Assembly: GCA_024742485.1 (NCBI GenBank) | Contig: JANSYK010000001.1 | Span: 62,001-126,000, forward strand | Source of the DNA: Alphaproteobacteria bacterium | GTDB lineage: Bacteria > Pseudomonadota > Alphaproteobacteria > Rhizobiales > Rhizobiaceae | Direction: 5' to 3' | DNA length: 64,000 nucleotides | Shown here: one piece after another, positions 21,335 to 63,900 of the stretch | Position numbering within the stretch: the first letter of the stretch is position 1 | How the letters are laid out: each line of letters starts with the position of its first letter | The notes under the pieces: model-generated | What the model was told of the DNA's origin: nothing | Databases searched by the model: none | What the model saw: only the letters and a program-made list of their open reading frames with translations | Translations under genes and position numbers: made by a program

Positions 21335-22498
21335 TCAGCGAAAGATGCTCAGATCTGCGCCAGTTACGGCACGTGAAAGAATATCAGCCGTTTTCTCCCC
21401 GCCATGACGTTGAACCGACGTCCAATCCGGCACGGGCCGGTCCATGACACGGTCGATGGCAGCGCAAAGGCCGGACGCGGTCTTTTCCTCGTGTCCGATC
21501 ATCTCGACAAGGCCACGCTTTGACAGCAATTGCGCGCGATGCAGCTGTTCGGTCTCCTTGTCATTCCACTGGGGAGAAATGATCGCTCGGCAGCCAGCGG
21601 CCATGATGTCGGCCACGGTGTTGTAGCCGGCAAGTGAAATCGACAATTGCGCCTTGGCAAGTGTGCAGTGCAGGTCCGGAATGAATGGTCGGAAAGCAAC
21701 ATCACCACCGGCCAGCGCCTCCAGCCTGGCATATTCGGAAGCTTCGAGATAGGGCCCGGTCAGGATGCACCACCGTGCTTCTTTCAGGTTCGAAATGGCC
21801 TTGGCTTCGACTGCCGAAGCAATCAACTCCCTGCCGAGCAGGCCTCCGCCAGCCGATACGACGACATCGAACGTTTCCTCGGCCGGTCTACCCCCTTCCG
21901 GTGTGACGATACCCGTATAGTAGGTGCAGTCGGCAATTTCGCTCGCAAAGGGAAATGTTGCATCCAGCCGGATGAGGTCCGGGTCGCCATGCACCAACAC
22001 GCCATCGAAATAGCGGTGAACAAACTCGACTGTTTGCCGGTCCTTCTTGGTTTTGTTGCCTTCCTGGAGGATATCGCGCACCGATGCAAAGATCATCGGT
22101 GGTTTGGCAAGGGACTTCGCCGCATCCATCAACGGAAGCAATTCGAAATGCATCTGACGACGACCGAATGGGAAGGCTTCCGTGACGATGATATCCGGAA
22201 TGCTGTTTGCAAAAATGGTCAGGACCAGGTCACGTCGGGCGGTTTTGTATTCCTCTGTTGCGGGCTTGCCATCCGCCGCCAGCAGATTGGAAAAATCACC
22301 CTTGCTGGAGACCAGGGATGGCAGGAAATGCACATCGGCCCCGCAAGAATCGAAATTCGGCAGCCGTTCCCCGCCATGGACGAGATCCACCTGAAATCCC
22401 CGGTCCACCAGGACGGACACAATCCGCATGGTCCGGAACACATGTCCCACACCGAGCAGATGCTGCACGTAGTAGAAAACACGTGGCTTGTCCGTCAT
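21335..22498 (-). CDS. MurG-like predicted glycosyltransferase (COG4671 type), second copy
   Basis: A 387-residue GT-B protein. It starts with RVFYYVQHLLGVGHVFRTMRIVSVLVDRGFQVDLVHGG, where GVGH is the nucleotide-loop-like motif of this group. The C-terminal half has VVSAGGGLLGRELIASAVEA and LSISLAGYNTVADIMAAGCRAIISPQWNDKETEQLHRAQLL, equivalent to the MurG donor site. It is a paralogue of the protein encoded at 23751-24968, with the same order of motifs. Its ATG overlaps the stop of the upstream GT4 gene (ATGA). No signal peptide or membrane helix is seen, so it is cytoplasmic or membrane-peripheral. Confidence 0.8.
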   Translation of the reverse strand: MTDKPRVFYYVQHLLGVGHVFRTMRIVSVLVDRGFQVDLVHGGERLPNFDSCGADVHFLPSLVSSKGDFSNLLAADGKPATEEYKTARRDLVLTIFANSIPDIIVTEAFPFGRRQMHFELLPLMDAAKSLAKPPMIFASVRDILQEGNKTKKDRQTVEFVHRYFDGVLVHGDPDLIRLDATFPFASEIADCTYYTGIVTPEGGRPAEETFDVVVSAGGGLLGRELIASAVEAKAISNLKEARWCILTGPYLEASEYARLEALAGGDVAFRPFIPDLHCTLAKAQLSISLAGYNTVADIMAAGCRAIISPQWNDKETEQLHRAQLLSKRGLVEMIGHEEKTASGLCAAIDRVMDRPVPDWTSVQRHGGEKTADILSRAVTGADLSIFR

Positions 22499-23754
22499 TG
22501 TGCTGCTTCAGCCCGTTCAGGCTCGATGCCGGCGGCCTCAAACAGATCGATGAGAAGCCGGATTTCCGACAAATGACTGAAGTCCCGCTTGACCCTGAGG
22601 ACACCGGCCTCACCCATCCGGGCCCTGAGTTCGGGATTTTCGATCAAACTGGCGATCGCCTCCTGTAGCGCATCAACTTGATCGGGTGGTGTAAGGAGAC
22701 CGTTCACACCATCTTCGATCAGTTCGACAATTCCGGATATGGGCGATGATATGCAGGGCAGGGCCTGGCTCTGAGCCTCCACGAGCACATTGGGCAATCC
22801 GTCCCGGTCTCCGTCTTTTGCTATTCGGCACGGCAGAACAAACAGGTCGCTTGCCCGGTAGGTTTGCAGAATGAATTCCTGTGGCTTTGATCCGAGCATC
22901 TCGACCTTTTGCTCCAGGCCGAGCTCCGCAACTTGAGACTGAAGTTTATCGGACAGAACGCCGCCGCCAATATGCGTCCAACGCCAATTGAGGGATTGGG
23001 GCATTTTCGACAAAGCGGCGATCAGCGTGTCGAGCCCCTTTTTTTCCACAGCGCGTCCAACCGTAAGGAGCCGAACAGGATCGTCCGGGTCGCGGCCGTC
23101 GCGCTGTGAGTGGCTGTGCCCCGGTGTCGGAAACCGCTTTAGGTCGATACCATGATGCACCAGCTGGACCGTCGAAGATGGAGCCGCCAGAGACTTTAGA
23201 TGCTCATACCCGCTCCGGGTACAGGTAACCGTCCAGCGCGCATCATTCAGCTTTTCGCGTAGCTCCCAGTCAGGCGAAGTCCAGATATCCTTTGCGTGGG
23301 CGGAACAACTCCAGTCAAGGCCGGTTATGAAGTGGGCGTAATAGGCCACGGAGGCAGGCGTATGGATGAAATGGGCATAAATCCATCGAACATCATTGGG
23401 CATTTCATGGGCGAGGACCAGCGACTGGCCAAAACGCCGTAGCCGGTTGCGGGTGCGGTCACGCCGGAAATCCGCCATCAGCGTTGCAAATGCCGTTCGA
23501 TACCCGGGTTTGCGACGACAGCCCCACCAGGCCCGCAGGACTCTGAGAGGTTCCTCATGCAGATATTCCGGCAGATAGGTGACGTCGGCCGCGATCTCGT
23601 CATGGATCGGATGTCGCGCTTTGTCGGTGGGTCGCCTCAGCGCGATGATGCGCAGCCGAAATCCGGCGCGTTCCAGTTCAAGCAGCTCCTGCGCGATAAA
23701 TGTCTCCGAAAGCCTTGGATAGCCCTTGAGAACAGCCGCGATTGAACCGGTCAC
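22495..23754 (-). CDS. GT4 family glycosyltransferase
   Basis: A 419-residue glycosyltransferase. I start it at a GTG (23754) that overlaps the upstream stop as GTGA, giving (M)TGSIAAVLKGYPRLSETFIAQELLELERAGF, which is the characteristic opening of this GT4 group. A longer open frame to 24072 lies inside the neighbouring gene and is rejected. Donor-site motifs are LLTVGRAVEKKGLDTLIAAL, WTHIGGGVLSDKLQSQV and DLFVLPCRIAKDGDRDGLPNVLVEAQSQALPCISSPISGIVELI (EX7E region). The gene couples to both neighbours by overlapping codons, so the cassette is probably translated in fixed ratio. Confidence 0.88.
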   Translation of the reverse strand: MTGSIAAVLKGYPRLSETFIAQELLELERAGFRLRIIALRRPTDKARHPIHDEIAADVTYLPEYLHEEPLRVLRAWWGCRRKPGYRTAFATLMADFRRDRTRNRLRRFGQSLVLAHEMPNDVRWIYAHFIHTPASVAYYAHFITGLDWSCSAHAKDIWTSPDWELREKLNDARWTVTCTRSGYEHLKSLAAPSSTVQLVHHGIDLKRFPTPGHSHSQRDGRDPDDPVRLLTVGRAVEKKGLDTLIAALSKMPQSLNWRWTHIGGGVLSDKLQSQVAELGLEQKVEMLGSKPQEFILQTYRASDLFVLPCRIAKDGDRDGLPNVLVEAQSQALPCISSPISGIVELIEDGVNGLLTPPDQVDALQEAIASLIENPELRARMGEAGVLRVKRDFSHLSEIRLLIDLFEAAGIEPERAEAAQ

Positions 23755-24968
23755 GGGCCTGCTCGTTCCACCGCCAGCGGACGAATGCCCTGCTTTTCGA
23801 GTGTCTCGCTGACTCGCGTGCAGATGCGATCGAGCCCGTTCGTATCGAAAGTGTCCAAACCCGGCGCACTGGCCTCCTGGTTCAGAAGGGACCGAATTGC
23901 GGCGGCCATGCGAGCCGGATTGGCAGCGTCGTTGGCCAGGATCATGTCCGCATAGCCAAGTTCCTGTGCCCGTTCGGCCCTGATGAGCTGTTCGGTACGG
24001 GGGGTCTGACGCGGAACGAACAGGGCGGGTTTGCGGCGCGCAATGACTTCGCAAAACGTGTTGTACCCGCACATGCCGACAACGGCTTCGGAATGGCGGA
24101 TCAAGGTTTCAGGTTGAGTGTCGAAGCCGATGACCTCGATCCGGTCAATGGTCGCTGCACGATCACGGATCGATTGTGCCTTGACCTCCTGACTATAGGG
24201 TCCGAGCAAGAGGACAGACGGGATTGGAATGGTGGGATCGCATTCATAGGCGCCCAGCACGGAATTCATCAGAAAATCACCGTCGCCACCGCCACCGGCG
24301 GTTACCAGCAGATATTTTTGCGGCAGATCATGAAGGGGGGACGCCTCCAGATCGGGGTTTGGTTGATAAAGGAATCCCGTATAGCTGCAGCTTCCACGAA
24401 CATTCTCCGGCAATCCCATACCCTTGAGTGGATCGTAGAAGTCTTTGGCGCCATAGATCCATATCTGGTCGTAAAGGCCATCTATGGCATCAAAAATGCC
24501 CTTGCTGTGCCACTCTCGCCGGACCGTCTCCGGATCATCAAGCACGTCACGCAATCCGAGAACCAGCTCCGTGGATGTCTGTTTGAGATAATCCAGCGCG
24601 TCCTGCAATTCACCGCCCAGACCCAAGGGTTCTTTGTCGGCGATGAAAATATTGGCGGGCATTGTTTCCGCACAGTGCCGAATGGCCTCGCGGCGCGCCT
24701 TGATGGCCTGTGCATATGTGAGATTCGGATCGGCCGAGCGGTAGCTGCCGTCCGGCTGTTTTTCCACCTGCGGCAATTCGACAAATCTGATGCGCGGATG
24801 CGGGGCATATTGGCCCGACAGGTTGGACCCGGTCATGATGGTGGTCACGAGTCCTGGAAACCGGTCAACCAGCGCACGAGCAATTTTACGATTGCGCCGG
24901 ATATGACCGAGGCCAAACGTATCATGGCTGTAGAGTAGGAGATGCGCTGCCGGGCTTACGGTATCCAA
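23751..24968 (-). CDS. MurG-like predicted glycosyltransferase (COG4671 type), first copy
   Basis: A 405-residue GT-B protein, first gene of the cassette. Its start HLLLYSHDTFGLGHIRRNRKIARALVDRFPGL contains the GLGH motif. Later come LLVTAGGGGDGDFLMNSVLGA and MCGYNTFCEVIARRKPALFVPRQTPRTEQLIRAERAQELG, matching the donor-site half of MurG-like enzymes. The closest relative in the window is the product of 21335-22498. It is probably soluble. The role in a glycan or glycolipid pathway is inferred only from neighbours. The promoter should lie in the gene-free stretch to its right. Confidence 0.8.
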   Translation of the reverse strand: MDTVSPAAHLLLYSHDTFGLGHIRRNRKIARALVDRFPGLVTTIMTGSNLSGQYAPHPRIRFVELPQVEKQPDGSYRSADPNLTYAQAIKARREAIRHCAETMPANIFIADKEPLGLGGELQDALDYLKQTSTELVLGLRDVLDDPETVRREWHSKGIFDAIDGLYDQIWIYGAKDFYDPLKGMGLPENVRGSCSYTGFLYQPNPDLEASPLHDLPQKYLLVTAGGGGDGDFLMNSVLGAYECDPTIPIPSVLLLGPYSQEVKAQSIRDRAATIDRIEVIGFDTQPETLIRHSEAVVGMCGYNTFCEVIARRKPALFVPRQTPRTEQLIRAERAQELGYADMILANDAANPARMAAAIRSLLNQEASAPGLDTFDTNGLDRICTRVSETLEKQGIRPLAVERAGP

Positions 24969-25685
24969 AGCGAATTGGCTCCAAGGCAGGTGATCTTGGA
25001 TGTCACCATGTTATCAAGGCGCGAACCGAACGGTCCGGAACGGCATATGTTGATCCAGTCAGCGATGCACTTGGCTCCCGCAATATTCCCCCACCCGTTT
25101 GAACAGCTCAAATTCAGACGGCATCAGCATTGTAAATAAGTGGTTGACGGCCAGATGTCACGGCTGATTTGCGTTTATGTGAAGCGAATTGAAAGCCGCC
25201 AAGGCATGAAGGCCGCTGATTTGCGGTGTCAAAAGTGAATCTCCGCGCACATCTGGCCTTGCGAGGGCGATTCCCTGGGGCCCTGGCAGCTAGTATCCGG
25301 TGCAATTGCGGCTTCGGCAGAACAGCAGTGACCTGAATACACCAATGAAATCAATGATCGGAACGACCGAGGCGTCTCTGACAAGGCGTACAGTGCTCTG
25401 GTCGCTCATTTGGAAGGCCCTTTTTGCGGCCGAACTTCCTGCCTTCGGGTAACAATCAACCGTCTTCATGTCAGAGTTGAAAGAACACAGGATTTGCAAG
25501 CATGTTGAGTGACGAAGAGGTGTGCGAGAGGTGGAAAACGGCGTCACGAAACAGGGAAAGCAGGTATCGAGGCAACGCTATTGAACGTTCACCTCCGTCA
25601 GCCTCGGAAATTCGACGGTTTCCTTTTTCCCTGTCCTTGCTATGACCGTGGAACAAGACCATCCAGGACGAGACGGGCAAGAATT
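24969..25685. other. Gene-free stretch between the glycosyltransferase cassette and fkbM-like gene
   Basis: About 717 bases with no convincing coding sequence on either strand. It must contain the divergent promoters for the glycosyltransferase cassette (leftward) and the methyltransferase gene (rightward), though I cannot point to confident -35/-10 pairs. It holds a 10-bp inverted repeat enclosing about 90 bases and an 11-bp direct repeat, listed separately. Short open frames here (60-100 codons) have no recognisable domains or ribosome sites. Confidence 0.6.
25149..25258. repeat. Long-range inverted repeat enclosing internal hairpins and a direct repeat
   Basis: GGCCAGATGT (25149-25158) and ACATCTGGCC (25249-25258) are perfect complements 90 bases apart. 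Inside, GCTGATTTGCG occurs twice (25163-25173 and 25215-25225), 52 bases apart. The first copy starts a possible CGGCT/AGCCG stem (25161-25165 with 25194-25198). The second lies in a CCGC-TGATTT-GCGG hairpin. A transcript would be able to fold into a closed multibranch structure of about 110 nt. This could be a structured leader, a small RNA or a decayed repeat; neither strand nor expression can be decided. Confidence 0.35.
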
Positions 25686-26543
25686 GTGAAAAGACGTGAC
25701 GATCTTGATGTGGCATCGGCTTTCGGGGTGCGTCGACCAGATTTTTTGCCAAAATTGATCTGGCAACTGGCGACACACCGAAAGATCGATCGCAAGCACC
25801 GGAAATTCATTCGAAAACGCATCGCGCGTCGTTTTCCGGGGCCATTTGACGTGACGGTCGAAGGAGTTTCGCTTCGAGCCTATCCGTTGGAAAACTACTG
25901 TGATCGAACGGCCGTCGGTCGTGGCAGACTTCCCGAGATTCCGGAGCGAAAGCTGATTGCTCCATTGCTCCACCCGAAAATGGTGTTCGTCGACATTGGT
26001 GCGAATATCGGCACCTACAGTCTGTTTGTCGCCAAATCCTGCCAGGATGACGCCACGATCCTGTCTTTCGAGCCTCACCCTCGGACCTTTGCCAAGCTCG
26101 TGTTCAACACACAGGCAAACCATTTCGACAGTATAGAGACGATCAATCAGGGCGTTGGTCCTCAACGCGAGCACATGCGTCTCTATTCCGATGGCGGCAC
26201 GAATATTGGTACTGCGTCCATTCTGCCTGATGCAGCCGGGAACAAGGAATCGGTCGATATTGAAATCGTGCCGCTTACCGACGTTCTCAAGCACCGTTTC
26301 ATCGATCACATCGATCTTCTGAAAATCGACATCGAGGGCTATGAGGACCAGGCGCTGATGCCGCTCATGCAGCCCGAGCATCAATCTTTATGGCCGCGTG
26401 CAATCCTGATCGAGACCGTACTGAAACAGCATTGGCAGAGTGATTGCATCGCCCATCTCCAGACGCTTGGCTATCAGTTAGCAGGCGATACTGGTGAGAA
26501 CATGCTGTTTTCTCATCCGATGACGGAAAAACTGGAGTCCTGA
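25686..26543 (+). CDS. FkbM family S-adenosylmethionine-dependent methyltransferase
   Basis: A methyltransferase of the FkbM group, which often methylates sugar hydroxyls or related acceptors. The SAM-binding motif is VFVDIGANIGTYSLFVAKS, followed by ILSFEPHPRTFAKLVFN, and the family motif IDLLKIDIEGYEDQALMPLM is complete. I use a GTG at 25686 (285 residues, normal length); the open frame extends to 25509 but the extra 59 residues look unlike protein sequence. No strong ribosome site marks either start. Its 3' end overlaps the convergent oxidoreductase gene by 31 bases. A link to the glycosyltransferase cassette is plausible but only positional. Confidence 0.82.
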   Translation: MKRRDDLDVASAFGVRRPDFLPKLIWQLATHRKIDRKHRKFIRKRIARRFPGPFDVTVEGVSLRAYPLENYCDRTAVGRGRLPEIPERKLIAPLLHPKMVFVDIGANIGTYSLFVAKSCQDDATILSFEPHPRTFAKLVFNTQANHFDSIETINQGVGPQREHMRLYSDGGTNIGTASILPDAAGNKESVDIEIVPLTDVLKHRFIDHIDLLKIDIEGYEDQALMPLMQPEHQSLWPRAILIETVLKQHWQSDCIAHLQTLGYQLAGDTGENMLFSHPMTEKLES

Positions 26544-27823
26544 TTGATTTTCCGATTGCGCGAAAACGCGCCCAGGGAAATGTCCTGACCGATGTGATCG
26601 AGATGAAAGGTGAGGGGGGTGCGGTCGTGATCGTGGCCGGCTTCGCATGCCTCGACAAGGGCGGCCATCATCTTGCCGGCAACCGGTGCGTTCTTGAACT
26701 GATTGCCGCTGGTACCCACCGCCATGTAGAAACCTTCCAGGTCGCTTCGGTCGTAGATCGGCATCCAGTCATCGGTCACATCATAGAGCGCAACAACACC
26801 ACTTGTTTTGGTGGGTATGCGCAGACCGGACAGGCGTTGTGCCATCCGCATCACCAGAACATTCCATTGATCTGAGAAATTGGTATCGAAGTGGTCGGGG
26901 TCCTCAACCCAATCCTGGGTGTCGCATGCCGGGTCTTCCGATCCGATGAGGATGTGGTTGCCGATTTCCGGCCTGCAATAGGTACTGATGTCACTGTCGG
27001 AGTAGACCAGCCCCTGACGCTCGAAATCCACTCCATCGGGTGCGGGAACATGCGCGACTTCATGGCGCAGAGCCCGTGTTTTCATCTTCATCCCGCTCTC
27101 GACACCGGCCATGGCGTTGACTTTCGATGAATGCGGTCCGGCCACATTGATCACGATTGGTGAATGGATCACCGAACCGTCTTTCAGGCGCACGCCGCAA
27201 ACGCGGCCGTTGTCGTTCAGGATTTCGACAATTTCAGAATTGAACAGAAATTCCGCACCATGGTGCTCTGCTGCGCGCTGCGCATTATGGGCTGACAGTT
27301 TGGGATCGTTGACATAACCGCCGCAAGGGAAAAACACGGCACCCGAAACCGCTGGGCCGGTCGGCTCACCAAAACCATTGTCTTCAGGCCGCTTGGCTGG
27401 CTCATATTGCCGTATATCGGCATTCGGCAACCGATCCGGAATTTGATCCGTTGCAACATGCTCATAGGGACATCCCAACCGGTCCATCATGTCGCACACC
27501 CGCGATAGCTGATGGTTGTGTTCGGTCTTGATCACCAGGCATCCGGTATTGTGGTACGCGATAAGCCCGTGTTCATCGGCGATGCCGATATAGTCCTTCC
27601 AGTCTTTCCAATAGTGCCAGCCTTCATAGGCGATGGCACAGGTTTCCAGCGCTGAGTAATAGGTTCGAATGATCGCGCAGGAACCTGACGTCGAGCCGTA
27701 TCCGGACTCGGGGAGCTTGTCGATCGAAAGTGTCTTGAATCCCTTCTTGGCAAGCTCGAAGGCTGTGCAGGCACCGATCACCCCGGCTCCGATGATGATG
27801 GCGTCATAAGTGGATCTGGTCAT
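26513..27823 (-). CDS. DAO-family FAD-dependent oxidoreductase (sarcosine/dimethylglycine-oxidase-like)
   Basis: A 436-residue flavoprotein. The dinucleotide motif is TYDAIIIGAGVIGACTAFELAKKGFKTLSIDK at the N-terminus; the later GVRLKDGSVIHSPIVINVAGPHSSKV and the C-terminal FYMAVGTSGNQFKNAPVAGKMMAALVEA are typical of the DAO fold. The start at 27823 follows CAGGGAA; an ATG 11 codons upstream lies within the preceding gene and is rejected. It follows the MttB-family gene by 16 bases. In known systems such enzymes oxidise N-methyl groups of sarcosine or dimethylglycine, which fits a pathway removing methyls from a quaternary amine. The true substrate is not known. Confidence 0.85.
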   Translation of the reverse strand: MTRSTYDAIIIGAGVIGACTAFELAKKGFKTLSIDKLPESGYGSTSGSCAIIRTYYSALETCAIAYEGWHYWKDWKDYIGIADEHGLIAYHNTGCLVIKTEHNHQLSRVCDMMDRLGCPYEHVATDQIPDRLPNADIRQYEPAKRPEDNGFGEPTGPAVSGAVFFPCGGYVNDPKLSAHNAQRAAEHHGAEFLFNSEIVEILNDNGRVCGVRLKDGSVIHSPIVINVAGPHSSKVNAMAGVESGMKMKTRALRHEVAHVPAPDGVDFERQGLVYSDSDISTYCRPEIGNHILIGSEDPACDTQDWVEDPDHFDTNFSDQWNVLVMRMAQRLSGLRIPTKTSGVVALYDVTDDWMPIYDRSDLEGFYMAVGTSGNQFKNAPVAGKMMAALVEACEAGHDHDRTPLTFHLDHIGQDISLGAFSRNRKINQDSSFSVIG

Positions 27824-27839
27824 TTGGATTTCCCTGTTG

Positions 27840-29369
27840 TCAGCCTTCAGCAACACCGCCTTCGGATTTGCGCCTGGCTATGAAATCGCTGATGGCTTCG
27901 GCGCGCGCCACGTCCATCGGTGGTGTCTGGTAATCCTTCAGCAATTGCCGTGAGATATCGTGGGCTCGCTGTGTGGCGTTCTTTGAACCCCGGTCCTGCC
28001 AGTTCTCGAAGTTGTTCCAGTCCGACACCATGGGCGTGTAGAAAGCTGTTTCATAGCGCTCCAGAGTATGGGCCGTACCGAAAAAATGACCCCCGGGTCC
28101 GACATCCTTGACGGCTTCGAGGCCCAACGATCCCTCATCGACCTGGAGTGGGCGCAGGAATTCTGAAAGACTTTGCAGCATTTCCGCATCGATCACCATT
28201 TTCTCGAAGGACGCGCACAATCCGCCCTCAAGCCAACCGGCACCATGCATCAGAAAATTGGCGTGCCCCATGAGCGCCGCCCAGGTCGACATTTGGCTTT
28301 CATAGGTTGCCTGAGCATCGACGCAGTTCGAGGCGTTGACGTTCGATGACCTGTAAGGCACGCCCACCCGGCGCGCCAATTGTCCGCCGATGAGTGCCGC
28401 TCGTGCATTCTCCGGTGTCCCGAAGGCCGGAGCACCGGTTTTCATGTCGACATTGGACGTGAAGCCACCATAGGCAACAGGGCAGCCCGGCGAGTGGATC
28501 TGCAGCAGTGCCATGCCGGCAAGGGCTTCGGCATGCTGCTGTGCCAGCGCGCCGGCGATGGTAACCGGGCTCATCGCGCCTGACAGGGTGAACGGAGTGA
28601 TGACGCAAAGCTGGTTATGGCGCGCCATTTCAAACGCGCCCTCAATCATGACTCCGTCAAGCCGCAGCGGTGATGACGTGTTGATGATGGTGAAGATGCG
28701 AGTCTTTTCCGCCAACGCTTCCTGGCTGCAGTCGAAAGCGAGACGAGTGATTTCAAGTGCGTCGACGATTCGCTCCCGCCCCAGCGAGTAGGCGTGGTAG
28801 ACCTTGTCGGTCAAGGTTGCGAAGTCACCGATGCAATCCAGGTGCCGGGTGGCCGGCGGCAGATCAATCGGCTCCACCGGATAGCCGCCGAAGAAGTGAA
28901 CAATATTCAGGGATTGCCCGAGCCTGAGGAAATCGCGGTAGTCCTTCTGGTTTCCCGATCGCCGACCATCGATGATGTCACTGGAATTCGGTGCGCTGGC
29001 CACGGACCCGAAGGCGATGCGATTTCCACCAATCGTCAGCGTATGGTTCGGGTTGCGCGCATGAAGCGTAACCTGCGATGGCGCATGCTTCATCGCCTCA
29101 TTGATCAATTCCCTGTCGAACCGCACACGATCGCCGGATGGATCGACATCCGCACCGGCTTTTCTGAGCAGGGATTTTGCACCGTCATGAAGGATGTCCA
29201 TACCGACATCCTCCAGGATCCGGAAGGCCGTGTCGCAAATCGCGTCGATCTGGTCTGCGGACAGCACCTCCATCGGCGGATAGGGGTTTTCTACCGACCG
29301 CCAGTCCAACTGGCTGACCGATGAGGTCTTTTGCCGGGCTTTCCGGCTGCCGTTCGATCGTCGCACCAT
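27840..29369 (-). CDS. Non-pyrrolysine trimethylamine methyltransferase (MttB) family protein
   Basis: A 509-residue member of the MttB superfamily (COG5598). The coding frame has no internal TAG, so it belongs to the non-pyrrolysine branch that includes glycine-betaine, proline-betaine and carnitine methyltransferases. Family features are EILRPLQ-like segments (QSLSEFLRPLQVDEGSLGLEAVKDVGPGGHFFGTAHTLERYETAFYTPMVSDW) and QLARRVGVPYRSSNVNASNCVDAQATYESQMS. The N-terminus is basic (RRSNGSRKARQK). The start at 29369 is chosen over a TTG at 29414, though its ribosome site is weak. No corrinoid protein gene (MttC-like) is visible nearby, so the methyl acceptor is unclear. Reaction is by family only. 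Confidence 0.85.
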   Translation of the reverse strand: MVRRSNGSRKARQKTSSVSQLDWRSVENPYPPMEVLSADQIDAICDTAFRILEDVGMDILHDGAKSLLRKAGADVDPSGDRVRFDRELINEAMKHAPSQVTLHARNPNHTLTIGGNRIAFGSVASAPNSSDIIDGRRSGNQKDYRDFLRLGQSLNIVHFFGGYPVEPIDLPPATRHLDCIGDFATLTDKVYHAYSLGRERIVDALEITRLAFDCSQEALAEKTRIFTIINTSSPLRLDGVMIEGAFEMARHNQLCVITPFTLSGAMSPVTIAGALAQQHAEALAGMALLQIHSPGCPVAYGGFTSNVDMKTGAPAFGTPENARAALIGGQLARRVGVPYRSSNVNASNCVDAQATYESQMSTWAALMGHANFLMHGAGWLEGGLCASFEKMVIDAEMLQSLSEFLRPLQVDEGSLGLEAVKDVGPGGHFFGTAHTLERYETAFYTPMVSDWNNFENWQDRGSKNATQRAHDISRQLLKDYQTPPMDVARAEAISDFIARRKSEGGVAEG

Positions 29370-29419
29370 GTCCCGTCTTTCTTTGATCCGCGCCAACGCG
29401 GCACGTTGTTGCAAAGGCT

Positions 29420-30211
29420 CTACAGAATGATGGAACCTGACTTTTCAAATTGCGACCGGATAACGCCGTAATCCGTCGGAAGGGTGGGCGAAAAGCCGGA
29501 CAGCATCAAAGCGTGTCTGCACTCCTCTTCCAGTGACGCCATCGCCTCCACCACGGCAAGATGGATTTGATCGGCGCGCCAATCGGATCGGTTTGCGCAA
29601 ATGAACGGTAGTCCCGGAGTCGGCTCCGTCTGCGCCAGGATGCGTAAATCTCCGGCAGCCTCTTCGTGACGCAGCGCGATCTTCCAGGTTACGGCGTCTA
29701 TGGCAGCCAGATCGGACTGGCGCTGGGCGACGGATTTGATCGATGCCCGATGGGAACCGGTGCAGATGCTCTCGCTGAACGGGCTGGCGTTCCAGGCGCT
29801 TTGCTGGAGCAGATAGGCGAGCGCCGCATAGCCCGATTGCGAATTCCTGCTGTTGTAGGCCAAACGCAGGCCACCAATGTCGTCCAATGATGAGACATCG
29901 CAATCGGAATGGACGACGATCACGCTGTAATAGCTGCCCGCACCGCAATCCAGTTCATAGGCTGGTGTTCCGACCAGCGCGACCTCATTGAAAAGATCGC
30001 GAACGTAGGGAAGGCCGCAACATTGCGCCAGAACCAGGTTTCCATCGTGCCAGATGGCTTCGGGTGGACGGCTCCGATCGAGCGCCTTTGGTGCTGGAAA
30101 ACCGAATCGTTTCAAACAGTTGGAGAGTTTGTCCCAGAACTGATCGGTTTCGCTTCGCAGTTCCGGCCAGTCATACATTGGAAGCGCCGCAACGCCGGTC
30201 ATTATGCTCAT
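29420..30211 (-). CDS. PhnD-like substrate-binding-fold protein without signal peptide
   Basis: A 263-residue protein with a phosphonate-binding (PhnD/transferrin-type) fold. It begins TGVAALPMYDWPELRSETDQFWDKLSN, and has EVALVGTPAYELDCGAGSYYSVIVVHSDCDVSSLDDIGGLRLAYNSRNSQSGYAALAYLL, which matches the SxxSGY ligand motif. It lacks an N-terminal signal peptide and no permease or ATPase gene accompanies it, so it is probably cytoplasmic. Its ATG overlaps the desaturase-like stop (ATGA) and the MttB-family gene follows. It could sense or deliver a small ligand. I know of no assigned function for this arrangement. Confidence 0.75.
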   Translation of the reverse strand: MSIMTGVAALPMYDWPELRSETDQFWDKLSNCLKRFGFPAPKALDRSRPPEAIWHDGNLVLAQCCGLPYVRDLFNEVALVGTPAYELDCGAGSYYSVIVVHSDCDVSSLDDIGGLRLAYNSRNSQSGYAALAYLLQQSAWNASPFSESICTGSHRASIKSVAQRQSDLAAIDAVTWKIALRHEEAAGDLRILAQTEPTPGLPFICANRSDWRADQIHLAVVEAMASLEEECRHALMLSGFSPTLPTDYGVIRSQFEKSGSIIL

Positions 30212-31185
30212 TGCGGCTTTTTCGGTGTCAACGGATAGGCCACTGGCTCTTTACGGTGAAAGGCGAAGCGCCGCAGTATTTCGCCATAGCTTCGAAAACC
30301 ATATCCCTTGTTCATCGCAATGAATCTCTCCCGGTGTCGTTGGTAAAGCGAAGGGAGCTGATGCCAGGCCACCGCCGGATAGGCATGATGGACGGCATGC
30401 AGATTGTTGTTGAGGAAAAGCAGGCTCAACGGACCCTTGTCTTCAATGATCACGGACCGTCCGCCATAGGATTCTTCGGCTTGATGCTCAAGATAAGTGC
30501 GAATCATCAACACCGACATGCCGCAATAGCAGCACACCAGATAGGCGATGATCCCAAATCCTGACCAATTGGCCACCAGATACAGAACACCGGTGCCAAG
30601 AACGCCGTGAAGCACCCATGCCATCTGAACCCGCCGGTCACCGGCGAGGATGGCCCTGCCATCGCTGATGGCCAGCCGAACGAGGGATATGGCCGGTCCA
30701 AGCACCATGCGGCCGACCAGCGTATTGTTGGCCTGAAAGACGATTTTGATCATGCGCGGCAGTCGAACCCAGAAATCCTGGGATACATACCAGCTCTCCG
30801 GGTCATCATAGGGATCGCAGATGCTGGCATTTTGATGGTGTTGCAGATGAACGTCCTTGAACCGCAGATAGGGAATGAGAAGCCCAATGGGCGGCGCAAC
30901 AATCAGGTCATTGAGCCATCGCTTGGTAAAGGGATGTCCGTGGAGGCACTCATGCTGCAGTGACGAATGGAGTGTGAGCAGGGGAATCAGCAACAGACCG
31001 GCCAGCCATGGCACGGACCAGGACAACCAGAGCAGTACAATCAGCCACAGGCCATAGCACATTGCGATGAGGGCAAGTGTGCGCCATTCCGTATTATCTC
31101 TAAGAATCATTAAGTTAGGTTCCCGCCAATGCGCAGGCAATATGCGCGGGCGGATGCCTGTTGGACAATATGAGAGTTCGCGCAT
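30208..31185 (-). CDS. Membrane fatty-acid-desaturase-family diiron enzyme
   Basis: An integral membrane protein with the three histidine boxes of the desaturase/hydroxylase superfamily: HECLH (about residues 78-82 from this start), HLQHH (113-117) and HAVHH near the C-terminal third. About four membrane helices are predicted by eye. ATGs at 31185 (325 residues) and 31110 (300 residues) are both possible; neither has a strong ribosome site, and the frame upstream of 31185 enters the divergent regulator's promoter. As first gene of an MttB/DAO operon it may oxidise a quaternary amine or an acyl chain attached to one, rather than membrane lipid. That role is inference. Confidence 0.82.
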   Translation of the reverse strand: MRELSYCPTGIRPRILPAHWREPNLMILRDNTEWRTLALIAMCYGLWLIVLLWLSWSVPWLAGLLLIPLLTLHSSLQHECLHGHPFTKRWLNDLIVAPPIGLLIPYLRFKDVHLQHHQNASICDPYDDPESWYVSQDFWVRLPRMIKIVFQANNTLVGRMVLGPAISLVRLAISDGRAILAGDRRVQMAWVLHGVLGTGVLYLVANWSGFGIIAYLVCCYCGMSVLMIRTYLEHQAEESYGGRSVIIEDKGPLSLLFLNNNLHAVHHAYPAVAWHQLPSLYQRHRERFIAMNKGYGFRSYGEILRRFAFHRKEPVAYPLTPKKPQ

Positions 31186-31200
31186 ATTAATGAGAATATG
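31167..31200. promoter_or_regulatory. Alternating AATATG/CATATT half-sites between the desaturase-like gene and the XRE gene
   Basis: Three 6-base half-sites alternate in orientation: AATATG (31167-31172), CATATT (31183-31188) and AATATG (31195-31200). The last two form a perfect CATATT-AATGAG-AATATG inverted repeat. They lie in an AT-rich tract between the divergent genes and overlap the longer start of the desaturase-like gene. This is a sensible place for the XRE regulator to bind and control both directions. The pattern is visible; binding is inferred. Confidence 0.5.
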
Positions 31201-31228
31201 TTTTGAATAATGTGCATTGTATTGAAAA

Positions 31229-32122
31229 ATGAAGAATGATGTGAATATACAACAAAATGTCATTGAATCGACGGACAAGCGCGATGTCGCCGAGGTGTTC
31301 CGTGGTCGAATGGCCCTGTTATTGGCCCAGAAGGGCTTCAATCTCAGCCGGTTCTCTCAGGAGATCGGCATAGACCGTTCGGCGCTCAGTCAATTCCTGG
31401 CGCCGGGCTCGACACGCCTCCCGCGGGCCGAGACATTGTGTGCCATCGCACGCGCCTTCGGCGTGTCGCTGGACTGGCTGATGGGGTTGATTGCCAACGA
31501 GACCTTTGACGAAGACATCGCGCCAATGATGGAGATCGAACGCGTCACGGATCAATCCAACAGTCAGATGATTGCCGCATGGCATGCCGAAGCCATGGGT
31601 TACAAGATCCGTTATGTGCCCAGCGCGCTGCCGGATCTCCTGCGCACCGAGGCCGTGCGCAACTTCGAATTCAACGCGCAGAATCTGGGGGAGCGGGAAT
31701 CCCGAGAGCAGCAGGCGCGCGACCAGCTGGTGTATTCAAGGCGCCCGGAAACCGACATGGAAGTCTGCATGCCGTTGCAGCGGCTGGAACAGTTCACACA
31801 GGGACAGGGTGTCTGGAGCGGACTCTCCATACGCCTGCGGCGTCAGCAGCTGGAGCACATGATCACGCTGATCGATGAGCTCTATCCGACCTTTCGTCTG
31901 TTTTTATACGACGAACGGGAAGCCTATGCGGCGCCCTACACGCTGTTTGGTCCACTGCGTGCCGCCGTATATCTCGGCGATATGTATCTGGTTGTGAACT
32001 CTGTTGAACATATCCGGGCCTTGACCATCCACTTTGACCGACTTATTCGCATTGCCCGCGTCGGGCCGGACCGCGTGTCGGACCGGATATCCCAACAGAT
32101 CGACGCACTGGAGCAGGCCTGA
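31229..32122 (+). CDS. XRE-family regulator with uncharacterised C-terminal ligand domain
   Basis: A 297-residue protein. Residues ~27-87 form a Cro/CI-type helix-turn-helix (LLLAQKGFNLSRFSQEIGIDRSALSQFLAPGSTRLPRAETLCAIARAFGVSLDWLMGL). The remaining ~200 residues form a separate domain I do not recognise; it contains LRTEAVRNFEFNAQNLGERESREQQARDQL and an YLGDMYLVVNSVEHIRALTIHFDRLIRIA segment that may bind a small molecule. The gene is divergent from the desaturase-PhnD-MttB-DAO operon and close to inverted half-sites, so it is probably its regulator. No clear ribosome site precedes the ATG, so a leaderless transcript or a later start is possible. Confidence 0.8.
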   Translation: MKNDVNIQQNVIESTDKRDVAEVFRGRMALLLAQKGFNLSRFSQEIGIDRSALSQFLAPGSTRLPRAETLCAIARAFGVSLDWLMGLIANETFDEDIAPMMEIERVTDQSNSQMIAAWHAEAMGYKIRYVPSALPDLLRTEAVRNFEFNAQNLGERESREQQARDQLVYSRRPETDMEVCMPLQRLEQFTQGQGVWSGLSIRLRRQQLEHMITLIDELYPTFRLFLYDEREAYAAPYTLFGPLRAAVYLGDMYLVVNSVEHIRALTIHFDRLIRIARVGPDRVSDRISQQIDALEQA

Positions 32123-32147: not shown

Positions 32148-34070
32148 TCAAAGGGACTTCAGATACTCGACCAGGTCCTGTCGCTCCGCCTCACTCAGAT
32201 CGGCATTGCCATAATCATGACCTGAGTTGAAGTTTCCGGGTATCGGCATTCCATTGTCGTCGCGAACCCGGAACACGAAACGGATGTCGGGATCGTCCTG
32301 GCTGAAACCGACCGCCGCCGGATCGAAGCGTCTTTGGCCAACGCCGAATGATTCGGGGCGATGCGCATCAGTCGCAGAGGCCACTGAATCATCAGAGGAA
32401 TTGGCCACTCTTGAGGGTAGCAGCAGATCATACAGCGTTGGGACCGATCCGTTGTGCAGATAGGGTGCCGTCGCCCAGATCCCGTTCAGCGGGCGGGCCT
32501 TATAGGCCAGAATATCGTCGGTCTGGGTCAGGCAGATCTGTGCAGACTCCTTTTTGATCTGGTCGTCGACACCGGGAAGATACTCTGTCAAACCTTCTGC
32601 AAATCCGAGGAACCGCGCTCTTGCGCCATTGAACAGATCATTGAAGATGAGGCCGAAGATGCTTGGAGTCTGGGAGATGATGGCGCCAACGGACGCGTTC
32701 ACCAGCATCTTGCGTGTGAAGTCCTCACGGCGAATGACATCGCCCGTATAGGCAAACTCCCACTGGTTTTCGAAATTGCCCGCGACTGATTCATGCAGGA
32801 AGGTGTTGCAGGCGGTAAAGACATCCGTATTGACCTCGGCCAATGGTGTCATTTGGTCTTTTGCCGGTGAAACCAGGTCGTCAGGCTCGAGATGGGCATG
32901 GCAGCGCGCGCAGTCGGCCTTTCCTTCGAAAAGGACGCGACCACGCTCAACCATCGCAGGATCGAGCGGCGGCAACACGTCTGTGGGCCAGACCGGTGAT
33001 TCCAGGAAACCCAGCAAACGTTCCAGTTCCACCATGTTCCGCAGCCGGAGACTGGACCGGTATCCCTTGAATGCCCGGCGATTATAGGCCTCGATATGAG
33101 CAAACACGCCAATCACCTCGGAGGTGTTGCGCACCAGCGCACCGAAGTCGGTCTTTTCACCGAACAGCTCGAATTCGAGAAAGTTCTTTGCGATCCCGTT
33201 CCATTGTATCTGTTTTTGTTGTGCCGTGTTCCAGACGAAAGGATAGCTGACCGGGGCGTCGGACGGCGAGGGGAACAGATCCTCGCCACTGCCGGTCACG
33301 GACGTGATCTTGTTCAGAATGTAGCCCTGTGCATCCAGGCGCGCATGGCCATGGACCAATGGTGTCCTGTTCTTTTCAAACAGGACACGTCTCCAGGCAA
33401 TCTGCTCATTCAACTGCTGTTTCAGATTGGCGCGTTCTTCCGGCAGGGCGGAAGGTGTGAGGACATTGTCGGCAAAGCGATTGAACTTGTCGTCGTCGTC
33501 GGCCGTTGCCTCGAGAGAGAAGAGAACCCCGTCGATGAAACTCTGAAAATCGGCGGATGCCGGAGCGCCTTCGATACGCACTCGCTTGTCGCCAAGCGTG
33601 ATTTCGGCGGTGTGGCATGCGGCGCAGTTCAATCCGACCCATTCCTTGCGCATGGTTCGTGCCGCGCACATTTGCGGGAACTTGTCGCACATCAAATCCG
33701 CTTTGGAAGACGGGTCATGATCTATGGCAAATCCGACCGGCAAACCCTGCGGATTCGTGTTCGACGGAGGATTTTCGAGATATCCCAGATCCTGCATATT
33801 TTGTTTGCCGAAAAATTTGACATCGGAATCAGGCATCTCCAGCGCCAGCGCCCAGTCAAGCGGCAAAAGCCGCGAACCCTGTGACGTCGTATACCACCAG
33901 GCGCGCTGCTCGTCCGTCCACCCCTGGTCAAGGCAGAACAGATCATCCTTGCAGATGCTGTTTTGCACCAATTGTGCCGTGGCTGGTCCGGGACTGGCAA
34001 GCAAGAGGAGAAGGGGGGCCGCCGTCAGAAACAACGCTCGGCGAATCCATTCAGGCTGAAAGATCGGCAT
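32148..34070 (-). CDS. Secreted diheme cytochrome c, RoxA-like (rubber-oxygenase/MauG-type family)
   Basis: A 640-residue secreted protein with a signal peptide (RRALFLTAAPLLLLLASPGP, cleavage near residue 32). Two c-type heme motifs are present: CAACH (149-153) and CARCH (387-391). Size, heme spacing and the C-terminal ATAPYLHNGSVPTLYDLLLPSR segment match the RoxA-like branch of diheme cytochrome c peroxidase relatives, which includes the latex clearing oxygenase RoxA of Xanthomonas. Activity on polyisoprene is not implied; many relatives are uncharacterised. The ATG at 34070 is preferred over a GTG two codons upstream because GAGGGGAG precedes it at good spacing. The upstream LuxR-type gene shares a likely operator with it. 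Confidence 0.82.
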   Translation of the reverse strand: MPIFQPEWIRRALFLTAAPLLLLLASPGPATAQLVQNSICKDDLFCLDQGWTDEQRAWWYTTSQGSRLLPLDWALALEMPDSDVKFFGKQNMQDLGYLENPPSNTNPQGLPVGFAIDHDPSSKADLMCDKFPQMCAARTMRKEWVGLNCAACHTAEITLGDKRVRIEGAPASADFQSFIDGVLFSLEATADDDDKFNRFADNVLTPSALPEERANLKQQLNEQIAWRRVLFEKNRTPLVHGHARLDAQGYILNKITSVTGSGEDLFPSPSDAPVSYPFVWNTAQQKQIQWNGIAKNFLEFELFGEKTDFGALVRNTSEVIGVFAHIEAYNRRAFKGYRSSLRLRNMVELERLLGFLESPVWPTDVLPPLDPAMVERGRVLFEGKADCARCHAHLEPDDLVSPAKDQMTPLAEVNTDVFTACNTFLHESVAGNFENQWEFAYTGDVIRREDFTRKMLVNASVGAIISQTPSIFGLIFNDLFNGARARFLGFAEGLTEYLPGVDDQIKKESAQICLTQTDDILAYKARPLNGIWATAPYLHNGSVPTLYDLLLPSRVANSSDDSVASATDAHRPESFGVGQRRFDPAAVGFSQDDPDIRFVFRVRDDNGMPIPGNFNSGHDYGNADLSEAERQDLVEYLKSL

Positions 34071-34148
34071 AGTCACTCCCCTCGATTCTATTTCATCGGC
34101 ACCTGTCGCCGGAACACCATCAGATGGAGCATCTCCGCCCGAGGGTCA

Positions 34149-60998: not shown

Positions 60999-63900
60999 TG
61001 AACATTCTCGCCAACCCGGTGCCCGGTGACGGCAATGTCCCGATAACGCTGGCGAATGTGCCTCCGGGCGCGGAAACGCTCCTGCTGGCGCAGGCAGCAC
61101 GCGACGGAAAAGCCGTGGCCTACATCGTGTCCGATGGGCAGCGAATGGCCGACCTTCAGCAATTCCTGGGTTTCGTCGCACCCGATATTCCGGTTTTGAC
61201 CCTGCCTGCCTGGGACTGTCTTCCCTATGACCGAGTGTCGCCTAGTGCCGAGGCTGCCGCACGGCGTCTGGCTGCGCTCAGCGCCTTGATTGCCCATGCC
61301 CGAAACCCGCATCCGGTAATCGTCCTTCTGTCAGTCAACGCACTGCTTCAGCTCATGCCGCCGCGCTCAGTCCTAGAAACCATGAGCTTCCAGGCGAAGC
61401 CGGGCAATCGGGTCAGAATGGACGAGGTGGCCAAACGTCTGGCCGATAACGGTTTCGAGCGCGTTCCGACTGTGCGCGATGTGGGTGAATTTGCCATTCG
61501 GGGTGGCATACTCGATGCCTTTGTTCCGGGCCATGCCGAACCGCTTCGGCTCGATTTTTTCGGCGACACACTGGAAACCATTCGCAATTTTGATGCGCAA
61601 ACCCAGCGGACCACGCGCCAGGAACAGTCGTTCGAACTCAATCCGATGAGCGAAGTGACGCTTGACGACAGGACGATAAGCCGATTCCGCCAGAATTATC
61701 TCAATCTGTTTGGCGCAGCGACGCGCGATGACGCCCTGTATCAGGCGATCAGTGAGGGCAGGCGATATGCCGGAATGGAACACTGGCTCCCGCTGTTTTA
61801 CGAGAATCTGGAAACGGTGTTCGACTATCTTCCAGGCTTCTCCTATTACGTTGACAGCCATGCGGCGGAAGCTGCAAAAGCGCGCATTGTCCAGATCAAG
61901 GACCATTTCGAGGCCCGGTGTCGGTCCGCCGATGCGGGCGGTTCGACCCATGGAACGCCCTATAACCCGGTTCCGGTCGATCAGCTTTATCTGCATCCCG
62001 ACACCATTGAAAAGGCGCTGATCAACGAAAACGCGGTCAGTATCTCTGCATTCCGTGAGGATGAAAGCGGATCCCGGAAGATTGTCAATCTCGATGCCAG
62101 ACAGGGGCATCGCTGGGCGAGGGGTCCGGATCAGGGTGTACGCGAGGAAGGCCGGGTCAATGTGTTTGATCAGGTCGCAAAACACATTGCCGACAAGCGG
62201 GCAGCCGGGGCCAAGGTCCTGATCACGGCCTGGAGCGAGGGGTCGTTGGACCGGCTGATGCAGGTGCTGGGCGAACATGGTCTCGAGCGGGTCAGGCAAA
62301 TTGACACGCTGGACGCAATGGATCAGTTGCAGAAAGGCGAAGCAGCGTCAGCTATCCTCCATCTTGAAAGCGGATTTGAGACCGACTCTCTGGTCATAAT
62401 CGGCGAACAGGACATATTGGGCGACCGGTTGGTGCGCCGCGGACGCCGCCGCAAGCGTGGCGCCGATTTCATCTCCGAAGTATCCGGCCTGGAGGAAGGC
62501 GACATCGTCGTTCATGCGGAGCATGGGATTGGCCGGTTCATGGGATTGAACACCATTCAGGCCGCCGGCGCGCCTCATGCCTGTCTGGAACTGCAATATG
62601 CCGAAAAGGCGAAGCTATTCCTGCCGGTGGAAAACATCGAGCTCCTTTCACGCTACGGGTCGGACGCGTCCGGTGCGGTTCTCGACAAGCTCGGAGGCGT
62701 TGCCTGGCAATCGCGCAAGGCCAAACTGAAAAAAAGGCTTCTCGACATTGCCGATGGCCTGATCCGGATCGCTGCCGAGCGCCAGACCCGAACGGCGCCC
62801 AAACTGAACGTTCCGGACGGGCTCTATGATGAATTCGCGGCCCGATTTCCCTATGACGAAACCGATGACCAGATGGTTGCCATCGATTCGGTCCTCGATG
62901 ATCTCGCCGCCGGAAAACCGATGGATCGGCTGGTATGCGGTGATGTGGGTTTCGGCAAAACGGAAGTTGCCCTGCGCGCCGCCTTTGTCGCGGCCATGAA
63001 TGGTGTCCAGGTGGCCGTGGTGGTCCCGACGACCTTGCTGGCGCGCCAACACTACAAGACCTTCACCGAACGCTTGCACGGCTTCCCGATCCGGGTGCGG
63101 CAGGCGTCGAGGCTTGTCGGGAGCAAGGAACTCACCACCACCAAGAAGGAACTCTCGGAAGGTAAGACCGACATCGTTATCGGCACCCATGCGCTGCTGG
63201 GGAAGTCAATCAGTTTTGCCAATCTCGGATTTCTTGTCATCGATGAGGAGCAGCATTTCGGCGTCAAGCACAAGGAGCGGCTCAAGGAGCTCAAATCCGA
63301 CGTGCATGTTCTGACCCTGTCGGCAACACCCATTCCGCGAACCTTGCAACTGGCCATGACCGGTGTGCGCGAGCTGTCCTTGATTACCACGCCGCCGATC
63401 GACCGCATGGCGGTCAGAACATTCATCTCGCCTTTCGACGCATTGGGAATACGCGAAACGCTTTTGCGGGAGCATTACAGGGGCGGGCAGAGTTTCTACG
63501 TCTGTCCACGGATTTCAGACTTGGCCGAAGTCCACGCTTTCCTTCAATCCGACGTCCCGGAACTAAAGGTGGCGGTGGCCCATGGACAACTGGCGGCGGG
63601 CGCGCTCGATGACATCATGAATGCTTTCTACGATGGTCAATACGATGTGCTCTTGTCGACCACTATCGTGGAATCCGGGCTGGATGTGCCGACCGCCAAC
63701 ACGCTGATCGTCCACCGGGCCGACATGTTCGGGCTCGCACAGCTTTACCAGCTCCGTGGCCGGGTCGGACGCTCGAAGGTTCGAGCATTTGCGCTGTTCA
63801 CTTTGCCGGTGAACCGTACATTGACCGCGACGGCGGATCGGCGGCTGAAGGTGCTGCAGTCCCTTGACACGCTGGGCGCCGGCTTCCAGTTGGCCAGCCA

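Follow-up and report, generated by a model that had tools for sequence, protein, structure and literature searches.

A Rhizobiaceae gene cluster pairs a predicted membrane diiron enzyme and an AioX-like binding protein with candidate genes of N-methyl amine catabolism

We analyzed a 64,000-nucleotide stretch of a Rhizobiaceae genome (the window; positions 62,001 to 126,000 of contig JANSYK010000001.1, assembly GCA_024742485.1; genome G000), in which four co-oriented, closely packed open reading frames (ORFs) on the minus strand encode a predicted membrane diiron enzyme of the FA_desaturase family (DES), a protein with the fold of periplasmic binding proteins (PBP), an MttB-family methyltransferase (MttB), and a sarcosine-oxidase-like flavoprotein (DAO). 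A gene for an XRE-family regulator (XRE) diverges from DES (Table 1). Methylated amines, glycine betaine among them, serve bacteria as important sources of carbon and nitrogen, yet for many of these compounds the responsible genes are not known. For glycine betaine, this importance is also set out in the available text of PMC12478193. Throughout, L, G, and f labels denote the stretches, genomes, and families compared in this analysis, and a slash in XRE/DES-PBP marks divergence.

Table 1. Features of the gene cluster, in window coordinates.
Feature	Position	Strand	Evidence
XRE-family regulator (HTH_3 plus conserved ~200-aa C-terminal part)	31229..32122	+	Pfam HTH_3 1e-7
AT-rich divergent promoter region	31111..31228		Alignment of 8 intergenic regions
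DES, membrane diiron enzyme (predicted), FA_desaturase family	30208..31110	-	PF00487 2.8e-37
PBP, periplasmic-binding-protein fold, AioX/ArrX-type ligand pocket	29420..30211	-	PF12974 6.7e-25
MttB-family methyltransferase, MtgB-like, non-pyrrolysine	27840..29414	-	PF06253 3.7e-193
DAO, sarcosine-oxidase-like flavoprotein	26513..27823	-	PF01266 9.1e-49

An earlier note on this DNA, made from the sequence alone, had described four co-oriented genes that include a membrane diiron enzyme, a binding-fold protein without signal peptide, and a non-pyrrolysine methyltransferase. All of this holds on the evidence given here and below, since the ORFs are present, tightly packed, and strongly matched to their families. 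The span that the note gave, 26513 to 31185, covers the four genes but leaves out the divergent XRE gene and probably starts DES too far upstream. The DES and PBP frames share 4 bases. The PBP-MttB gap is 5 or 50 bases, depending on whether MttB starts at TTG 29414 or ATG 29369, and MttB and DAO are separated by ~16 bases if DAO starts at ATG 27823 or overlap by 17 if it starts at the alternative GTG 27856. These gaps are operon-like, and the four genes appear to be packed as a single minus-strand operon. The DES start is probably 31110 rather than 31185, because the alignment of near relatives opens at MIL.D..EW (its starts being match ends rather than annotated starts) and residues 1 to 29 of the longer form are modeled with a predicted local distance difference test score (pLDDT) below 50. 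With this start, 118 bases separate XRE and DES, and an intergenic stretch common to aligned relatives, which in the window reads ATTCTCATTAATATGCGCGAACTCTCATATTGTCCA (L039, L040, and L149 are covered only in part), is a candidate XRE operator. Downstream, a convergent FkbM methyltransferase gene is syntenic in relatives and is not counted as an operon member.

A scan of genome contigs with DES gave 11 loci, five of which (Hoeflea poritis, Nitratireductor sp. XY-223, and three Rhizobiaceae assemblies) have the arrangement XRE/DES-PBP-DAO-FkbM, with a DAO 76 to 80% identical to that of the window lying ≤0.2 kb from PBP, and with MttB absent. The same gene order recurs in L149 and L148, which represent one genome of the window's genus and one of its family; XRE/DES-PBP-DAO is thus found in 8 loci, the window included. 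MttB is missing from 7/7 of the closest cassettes (L039-L043, L148, and L149), sits between PBP and DAO in the window only, and has relatives of 52 to 56% identity elsewhere in all seven genomes. We therefore ruled out MttB as the core of the system; the conserved core is instead XRE/DES-PBP, with MttB looking like an optional extra. The gene-neighborhood check that had been proposed for the four-gene set gives a divided answer: the set is absent as a unit from the closest cassettes, but DES, PBP, MttB, and a DAO-family gene co-occur in another order in L068 and L097, which come from two genomes of a single other genus and where DAO is distant (46 to 47% identity, and not in the branch of the window copy and two paralogues from its own genome). 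We assembled a set of 44 DES-PBP loci (stretches >9 kb with DES and PBP ≤2.6 kb apart, window included, five fetched through MttB or DAO matches). XRE lies ≤1.2 kb from DES-PBP in 30 of these at 37 to 100% identity, and the divergent regulator, as judged by sequence comparison, belongs with the conserved unit.

DES scores 129 bits vs 29.7 for PF00487, and nine histidines (H78, H82, H113, H116, H117, H234, H263, H266, and H267, counted from the 31185 start) are invariant in 29/29 rows, the distant Hoeflea type included, as expected for a membrane diiron site, in which the metal is predicted. The AlphaFold2 model of DES (pLDDT 79) finds weak fold matches only in the PDB, to two chloroplast motor-complex chains and FtAlkB. 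All 29 DES-family rows match the CrtR model weakly, and 17/29 match that of GntB (NF041365, named L-arginine hydroxylase in NCBIfam) below its cutoff. GntB, described in the available text of PMC10367076 as a transmembrane enzyme that makes a linear enduracididine precursor, is likewise a desaturase-superfamily membrane enzyme that acts on a small cationic amino acid, whereas the window DES has another operon context and does not match the GntB model at E 0.001. From the gene context and this precedent, we infer that the DES family may act on small polar molecules.

Searched against the PDB, a 25-sequence PBP profile matches AioX (4e-30) and ArrX (2e-22) better than PtxB (2e-13) or PhnD (1e-11), and the top six Foldseek matches of the AlphaFold2 model (pLDDT 91, pTM 0.88) are all AioX. 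According to the available text of PMC5908839, Cys106 is the arsenite ligand of AioX, in a pocket with Tyr88, Tyr131, Ser161, Ser163, His192, and Asp210, and PhnD has Gly and Asn where AioX has Cys and Asp. Counting along the profile alignment maps AioX Cys106, Tyr131, Ser161, Ser163, His192, and Asp210 to PBP C65, Y94, S124, S126, H154, and D172, respectively, with the Tyr88 counterpart not resolved. C65, S124, S126, H154, and D172 are invariant in 25/25 PBP sequences and, in a wider set of 57, are kept at 100% except for S126 at 96%; Y94 is kept in 9/9 near relatives, not in all 25. The PhnD equivalog TIGR03431 scores 59.8 bits vs 261. Given this score, the profile ranking, and the Foldseek matches, we rejected PhnD-like transporter component as a label, and the term PhnD-like first given to PBP proved too loose; in sequence and predicted fold, PBP is closest to AioX/ArrX rather than PhnD. 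PBP is predicted to lack a signal peptide, because no hydrophobic segment marks its N terminus and the fold starts, with its first strand, as early as residue 7. It differs from AioX/ArrX in this respect, in sharing an operon with a membrane diiron enzyme, and in that no AioS/AioR-type partners were seen: its neighbors are XRE, DES, MttB, and DAO, and the eight window proteins scanned include no histidine kinase. The Cys/His/Asp site would also allow an enzymatic role. On a Ruegeria conchae plasmid (L078:5773-10738), a PBP relative with the AioX-type cysteine diverges from a helix-turn-helix gene at an ArsJ/ACR3 arsenic operon.

The window MttB matches PF06253 over its full length (642 bits, model positions 5 to 500 of 500) and is encoded by a 524-codon ORF without internal stop or in-frame amber codon, and is thus of the non-pyrrolysine type. 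It scores 289.8 bits against the trimethylamine MttB equivalog TIGR02369, below the cutoff of 525. In a maximum-likelihood tree of 42 MttB proteins, many of them sampled because they lie near DES, the window copy falls in a clade (96/94) separate from that of the Mtg-operon MttB, to which it is 37 to 40% identical. Its clade includes MttB genes close to DES-PBP from families f28 and f41, one on a Phaeobacter plasmid with a DES gene ~8 kb away (L070), others with no DES nearby (L140, L108, and L109), and Hoeflea and Nitratireductor MttB genes followed by a second, distant desaturase gene (L142 and L143). These last form a separate MttB, SnoaL-like, distant FA desaturase arrangement at L142:7363-10304 (H. 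poritis) and L143:8744-11686 (Nitratireductor sp. XY-223); in L142, the three genes stand end to end, and the desaturase, 23% identical to the window DES, matches the NCBIfam GntB model at 7.6e-15 (55 bits, below the cutoff of 380).

G000 has 8 MttB places, whose genes fall into several deep clades of the tree and among which L007 and L008 are 27 to 30% identical to the window copy. The operon itself encodes no corrinoid protein or activase, and the earlier note was correct that no corrinoid partner lies nearby; this does not extend to the genome. A locus ~1.1 Mb away on the same contig encodes an MttB together with MtgC (86%), a MetF2-like protein (53%), RamA (72%), and a GbdR-like regulator (65%; identities to L057), so that the genome search which the note had proposed for corrinoid proteins was positive. 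A missing corrinoid partner is ruled out by MtgC and RamA, the idea of an orphan methyltransferase fails in a genome that has an MtgB/MtgC/RamA set of the published type, and the question of the methyl acceptor therefore has an ordinary candidate answer. MtgC and MtgD of aerobic marine bacteria serve glycine-betaine demethylation and methionine synthesis (PMC12478193, 2025, in its available text). The Mtg system of Ruegeria pomeroyi described there resembles ours in its MttB-family enzyme and in a genome with MtgC, RamA, and MetF2-like genes; the window differs in that its MttB lies outside the Mtg-operon clade and shares an operon with DES, PBP, and DAO, and the word desaturase occurs 0 times in the main text of that paper as available.

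DAO has the FAD-dependent oxidoreductase domain (PF01266) and the N-methyl amine context of sarcosine and N-methyl-tryptophan oxidases but differs from them in score: it reaches 85.3, 80.2, and 73.5 bits with NCBIfam models for sarcosine oxidase and N-methyl-L-tryptophan oxidase vs cutoffs of 257 to 530 and gains no NCBIfam name. Its relatives adjoin DMGDH-like genes (those with DAO, GCV_T, and FAO_M domains) in L152, in L166, and, as a 53% paralogue, in L155 of its own genome, and one adjoins MttB in L153. In L166 (G049), genes for MttB (55%), M24, a DMGDH-like protein, and DAO (55%; identities to the window) are consecutive on one strand, with the M24 and DMGDH-like proteins 59% and 76% identical to those of L060, respectively, a run that suggests that three methyl groups are removed one after another. 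The window operon is without a DMGDH gene; G000 encodes a DMGDH-like protein on another contig (71% over 745 residues), one of 9 DMGDH-family rows, two of which are pieces of one gene.

Genes of this kind recur around DES-PBP pairs. In addition to XRE, the 44 loci have nearby MttB in 12, DMGDH-like genes in 11, DAO in 10, DddP-like M24 in 6, RamA in 3, and MtgC in 2, at identity thresholds set by us (MttB counted at any identity, that of L057 being the 40% Mtg type, and DAO from 44%). MttB is ≤10 kb away in 8/26 loci fetched by PBP search vs 0/40 control stretches (P 3e-4), and any of MttB, DMGDH, DAO, or RamA is near in 16/38 loci vs 0/40 controls (P 1e-6). The 38-locus test, with counts typed by hand, leaves out the window and the loci chosen through MttB or DAO (L171, L177, and L179, fetched for close PBP and MttB matches, and L148 and L149, fetched through DAO) and includes 12 loci from named contigs or plasmids without matching controls. 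The 40 controls, whose round coordinates in 24 PBP-positive genomes were chosen by hand (five stretches come from genomes without MttB), contain no MttB, close DMGDH, DAO, RamA, MtgC, M24, or XRE at the same thresholds. A PBP search of 297 genomes of the order (E 1e-10) found 82 positive, the window's genome included. We counted neighbors in the 62 with the stronger matches, the window's genome excluded; same-family genomes are not independent, and of the weaker matches left out, three (L171, L177, and L179) later proved to be real DES-PBP loci. MttB lies ≤10 kb from PBP in at least 10 of these 62 genomes, where genome size and copy number predict 1.2 (P 2e-7), and ≤25 kb away in at least 15 vs 3.0 expected; for RACo, the counts are at least 3 vs 0.25 expected (≤10 kb) and at least 7 vs 0.6 (≤25 kb). 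DES and/or PBP stand beside MtgC and RamA in L057, L092, and L075, and an MttB-DMGDH-M24 run converges on XRE/DES-PBP in three own-family genomes (L171, L177, and L179, picked for close matches) and, in full or in part, in five f28-family genomes. DES-PBP pairs are therefore enriched near MttB, DMGDH-like, and DAO-family genes, which supports an onium or N-methyl-amine context; the quaternary-amine pathway proposed in the earlier note stands to this extent, but not as a single conserved four-gene pathway.

Three further observations concern these neighborhoods. The M24 protein is DddP-like, falls below the dimethylsulfoniopropionate lyase cutoff (501 to 519 bits in L060 and L056 vs 600), and adjoins DMGDH-like and MttB genes; the M24 proteins of L171, L177, and L179, likewise beside DMGDH-like and MttB genes, are 59 to 60% identical to that of L060. 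A DinB-FGE-EgtD fusion (ergothioneine-type domains; EgtB-EgtD-like) is encoded at L056:5398-7665, ~2 kb from the DES-PBP pair. Histidine-ammonia-lyase-type genes are found at L073 and L069; together with the fusion, they are leads toward ergothioneine as a conceivable substrate.

We tentatively favor, at somewhat less than even odds, the reading that this operon is inducible and serves the catabolism of a small N-methylated compound, probably a betaine-like zwitterion, which would be N-demethylated stepwise, with DES hydroxylating the substrate. What the comparisons establish is the gene content, its conservation, the enrichment of the neighborhood, the conserved pocket and histidine residues, the Mtg-type locus, and the 71% DMGDH-like gene; induction, substrate, order of reactions, DES chemistry, and PBP role we infer as follows. 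The divergent XRE regulator would control the operon, and DES would hydroxylate or dehydrogenate the substrate. PBP, in the cytosol, would bind an anionic or thiol-reactive ligand as a sensor or handling protein or, less likely, have enzyme activity through a Cys/His/Asp site. MttB would move one methyl group from the quaternary nitrogen to the genome's MtgC cobalamin protein and on to tetrahydrofolate, the DMGDH-like enzyme encoded elsewhere would remove the second, and DAO would oxidize the last N-methyl group. The older cassette would comprise XRE, DES, PBP, and DAO, with MttB gained in the window lineage or lost from the others; its addition would widen the range to quaternary substrates.

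A number of results weigh against this reading. No MttB is among the matches listed for 13 of the 62 PBP-positive genomes, and a search of the Reinekea genome found none at E 1e-20. Counted by family, the MttB link is modest, with MttB ≤10 kb from PBP in at least 4/25 families (P 0.024) and ≤25 kb away in at least 6/25 (P 0.038). Window-type DES is near 0/17 close MttB relatives taken regardless of DES (picked at 53 to 58% identity; two stretches, L160 and L167, are short), whereas a DMGDH-like gene is present in 8 of these 17, and thus this MttB type is mainly a DMGDH partner, with DES-PBP one of several joined modules. Window-type DES is likewise near 0/8 of the best MttB matches in Rhizobiaceae-type and Oceanicella genomes, 2/8 of which have a distant desaturase. 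DES and/or PBP also occur among sulfur, histidine-lyase, and other genes. The window DES has weak CrtR, CrtW, and DesA matches only, besides its lack of a GntB match, and the window MttB is flagged as a long branch, which makes its exact place in the tree unsure.

Of the other explanations, a side operon of glycine betaine or dimethylglycine use, in which DES-PBP adjusts or senses the ordinary glycine-betaine route and MttB and DAO are paralogues of its enzymes, seems unlikely. It would account for the MtgC, RamA, and GbdR-like regulator genes near DES-PBP in L057, for RamA and GbdR in L047, and for a genome so rich in MttB places and DMGDH-family rows; yet G000 already has an Mtg-type locus, the window MttB clade stands apart from that of the Mtg operons (with the long-branch flag on the window copy), and the published route, in the available text of PMC12478193, gives no role to a DES or PBP. 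We give a still smaller chance to MttB being a recent insertion without functional tie. Its absence from the nearest cassettes, whose genomes hold their closest relatives elsewhere, is what such an event would leave, but other families have close relatives near their DES-PBP pairs, L166 has one together with a DAO relative, and in the window the base composition of MttB is close to that of its neighbors and its gaps are operon-like.

About as improbable as a chance insertion is a separate oxyanion, arsenic, or sulfur system in which PBP would act as an AioX-type sensor in the cytosol, with MttB and DAO next to it by chance, or, in its extreme form, one with a trimethylarsonio or sulfonium substrate. 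The conserved AioX pocket residues are in its favor, as are ArsJ and ACR3 beside PBP in L078, ACR3 in L068, and sulfur genes beside DES and/or PBP in L072, L074, and L077. The enrichment of N-methyl genes is nevertheless significant, a histidine kinase is lacking among the window proteins scanned, and an arsenic context was not supported, with ACR3 or ArsJ near just 2 of the loci searched and absent from the window (other arsenic genes were not searched). Least probable of all, we consider, is a lipid desaturase or hydroxylase that remodels membrane or betaine lipids in a loosely metabolic operon: PF00487 membership, the fatty acid desaturase annotation of related plasmid genes, and the weak DesA and CrtR matches would fit, but DES repeatedly shares a run with a soluble binding protein and has amine-oxidase-type genes in that run or nearby, and the subset of neighbors scanned with Pfam includes one lipid-type gene, an acyltransferase in L065.

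Returning to the favored reading of an N-demethylating operon, a broader and more doubtful version holds that XRE/DES-PBP makes up a catabolic module not yet described, where a membrane diiron hydroxylase for small N-methylated zwitterions has a regular cytosolic AioX-type partner (a sensor or an enzyme of binding-protein fold) and combines freely with MttB, DMGDH, DAO, and DddP-like M24; if so, such combinations would open new onium compounds to degradation. Searching open-access full texts, a scope outside which most subscription literature lies, turned up no paper on the gene set, in agreement with the earlier note, which knew of no characterized pathway with it. We view the operon as a variation on quaternary or N-methyl amine catabolism whose core module is without a description found in that literature. 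A recurrent, regulated module that brings a membrane diiron enzyme together with corrinoid-type demethylation genes would point to substrates beyond the glycine-betaine route already published and offers a short list of genes that can be tested, and AioX-type binding proteins would extend from periplasmic sensing to an intracellular role.

Two neighboring regions of the window complete the picture. Adjoining the XRE gene, positions 32148 to 34076 encode a di-heme cytochrome c peroxidase or RoxA-like protein that is not among the clusters common to relatives. ORFs for the FkbM methyltransferase (25509 to 26543) and for glycosyltransferase-like proteins (21335 to 24968) are syntenic with those of the Rhizobiaceae relatives L042 and L043; ORFs for these synteny comparisons were picked by length, some of them wrongly, and later comparisons used codon-position composition or profiles.

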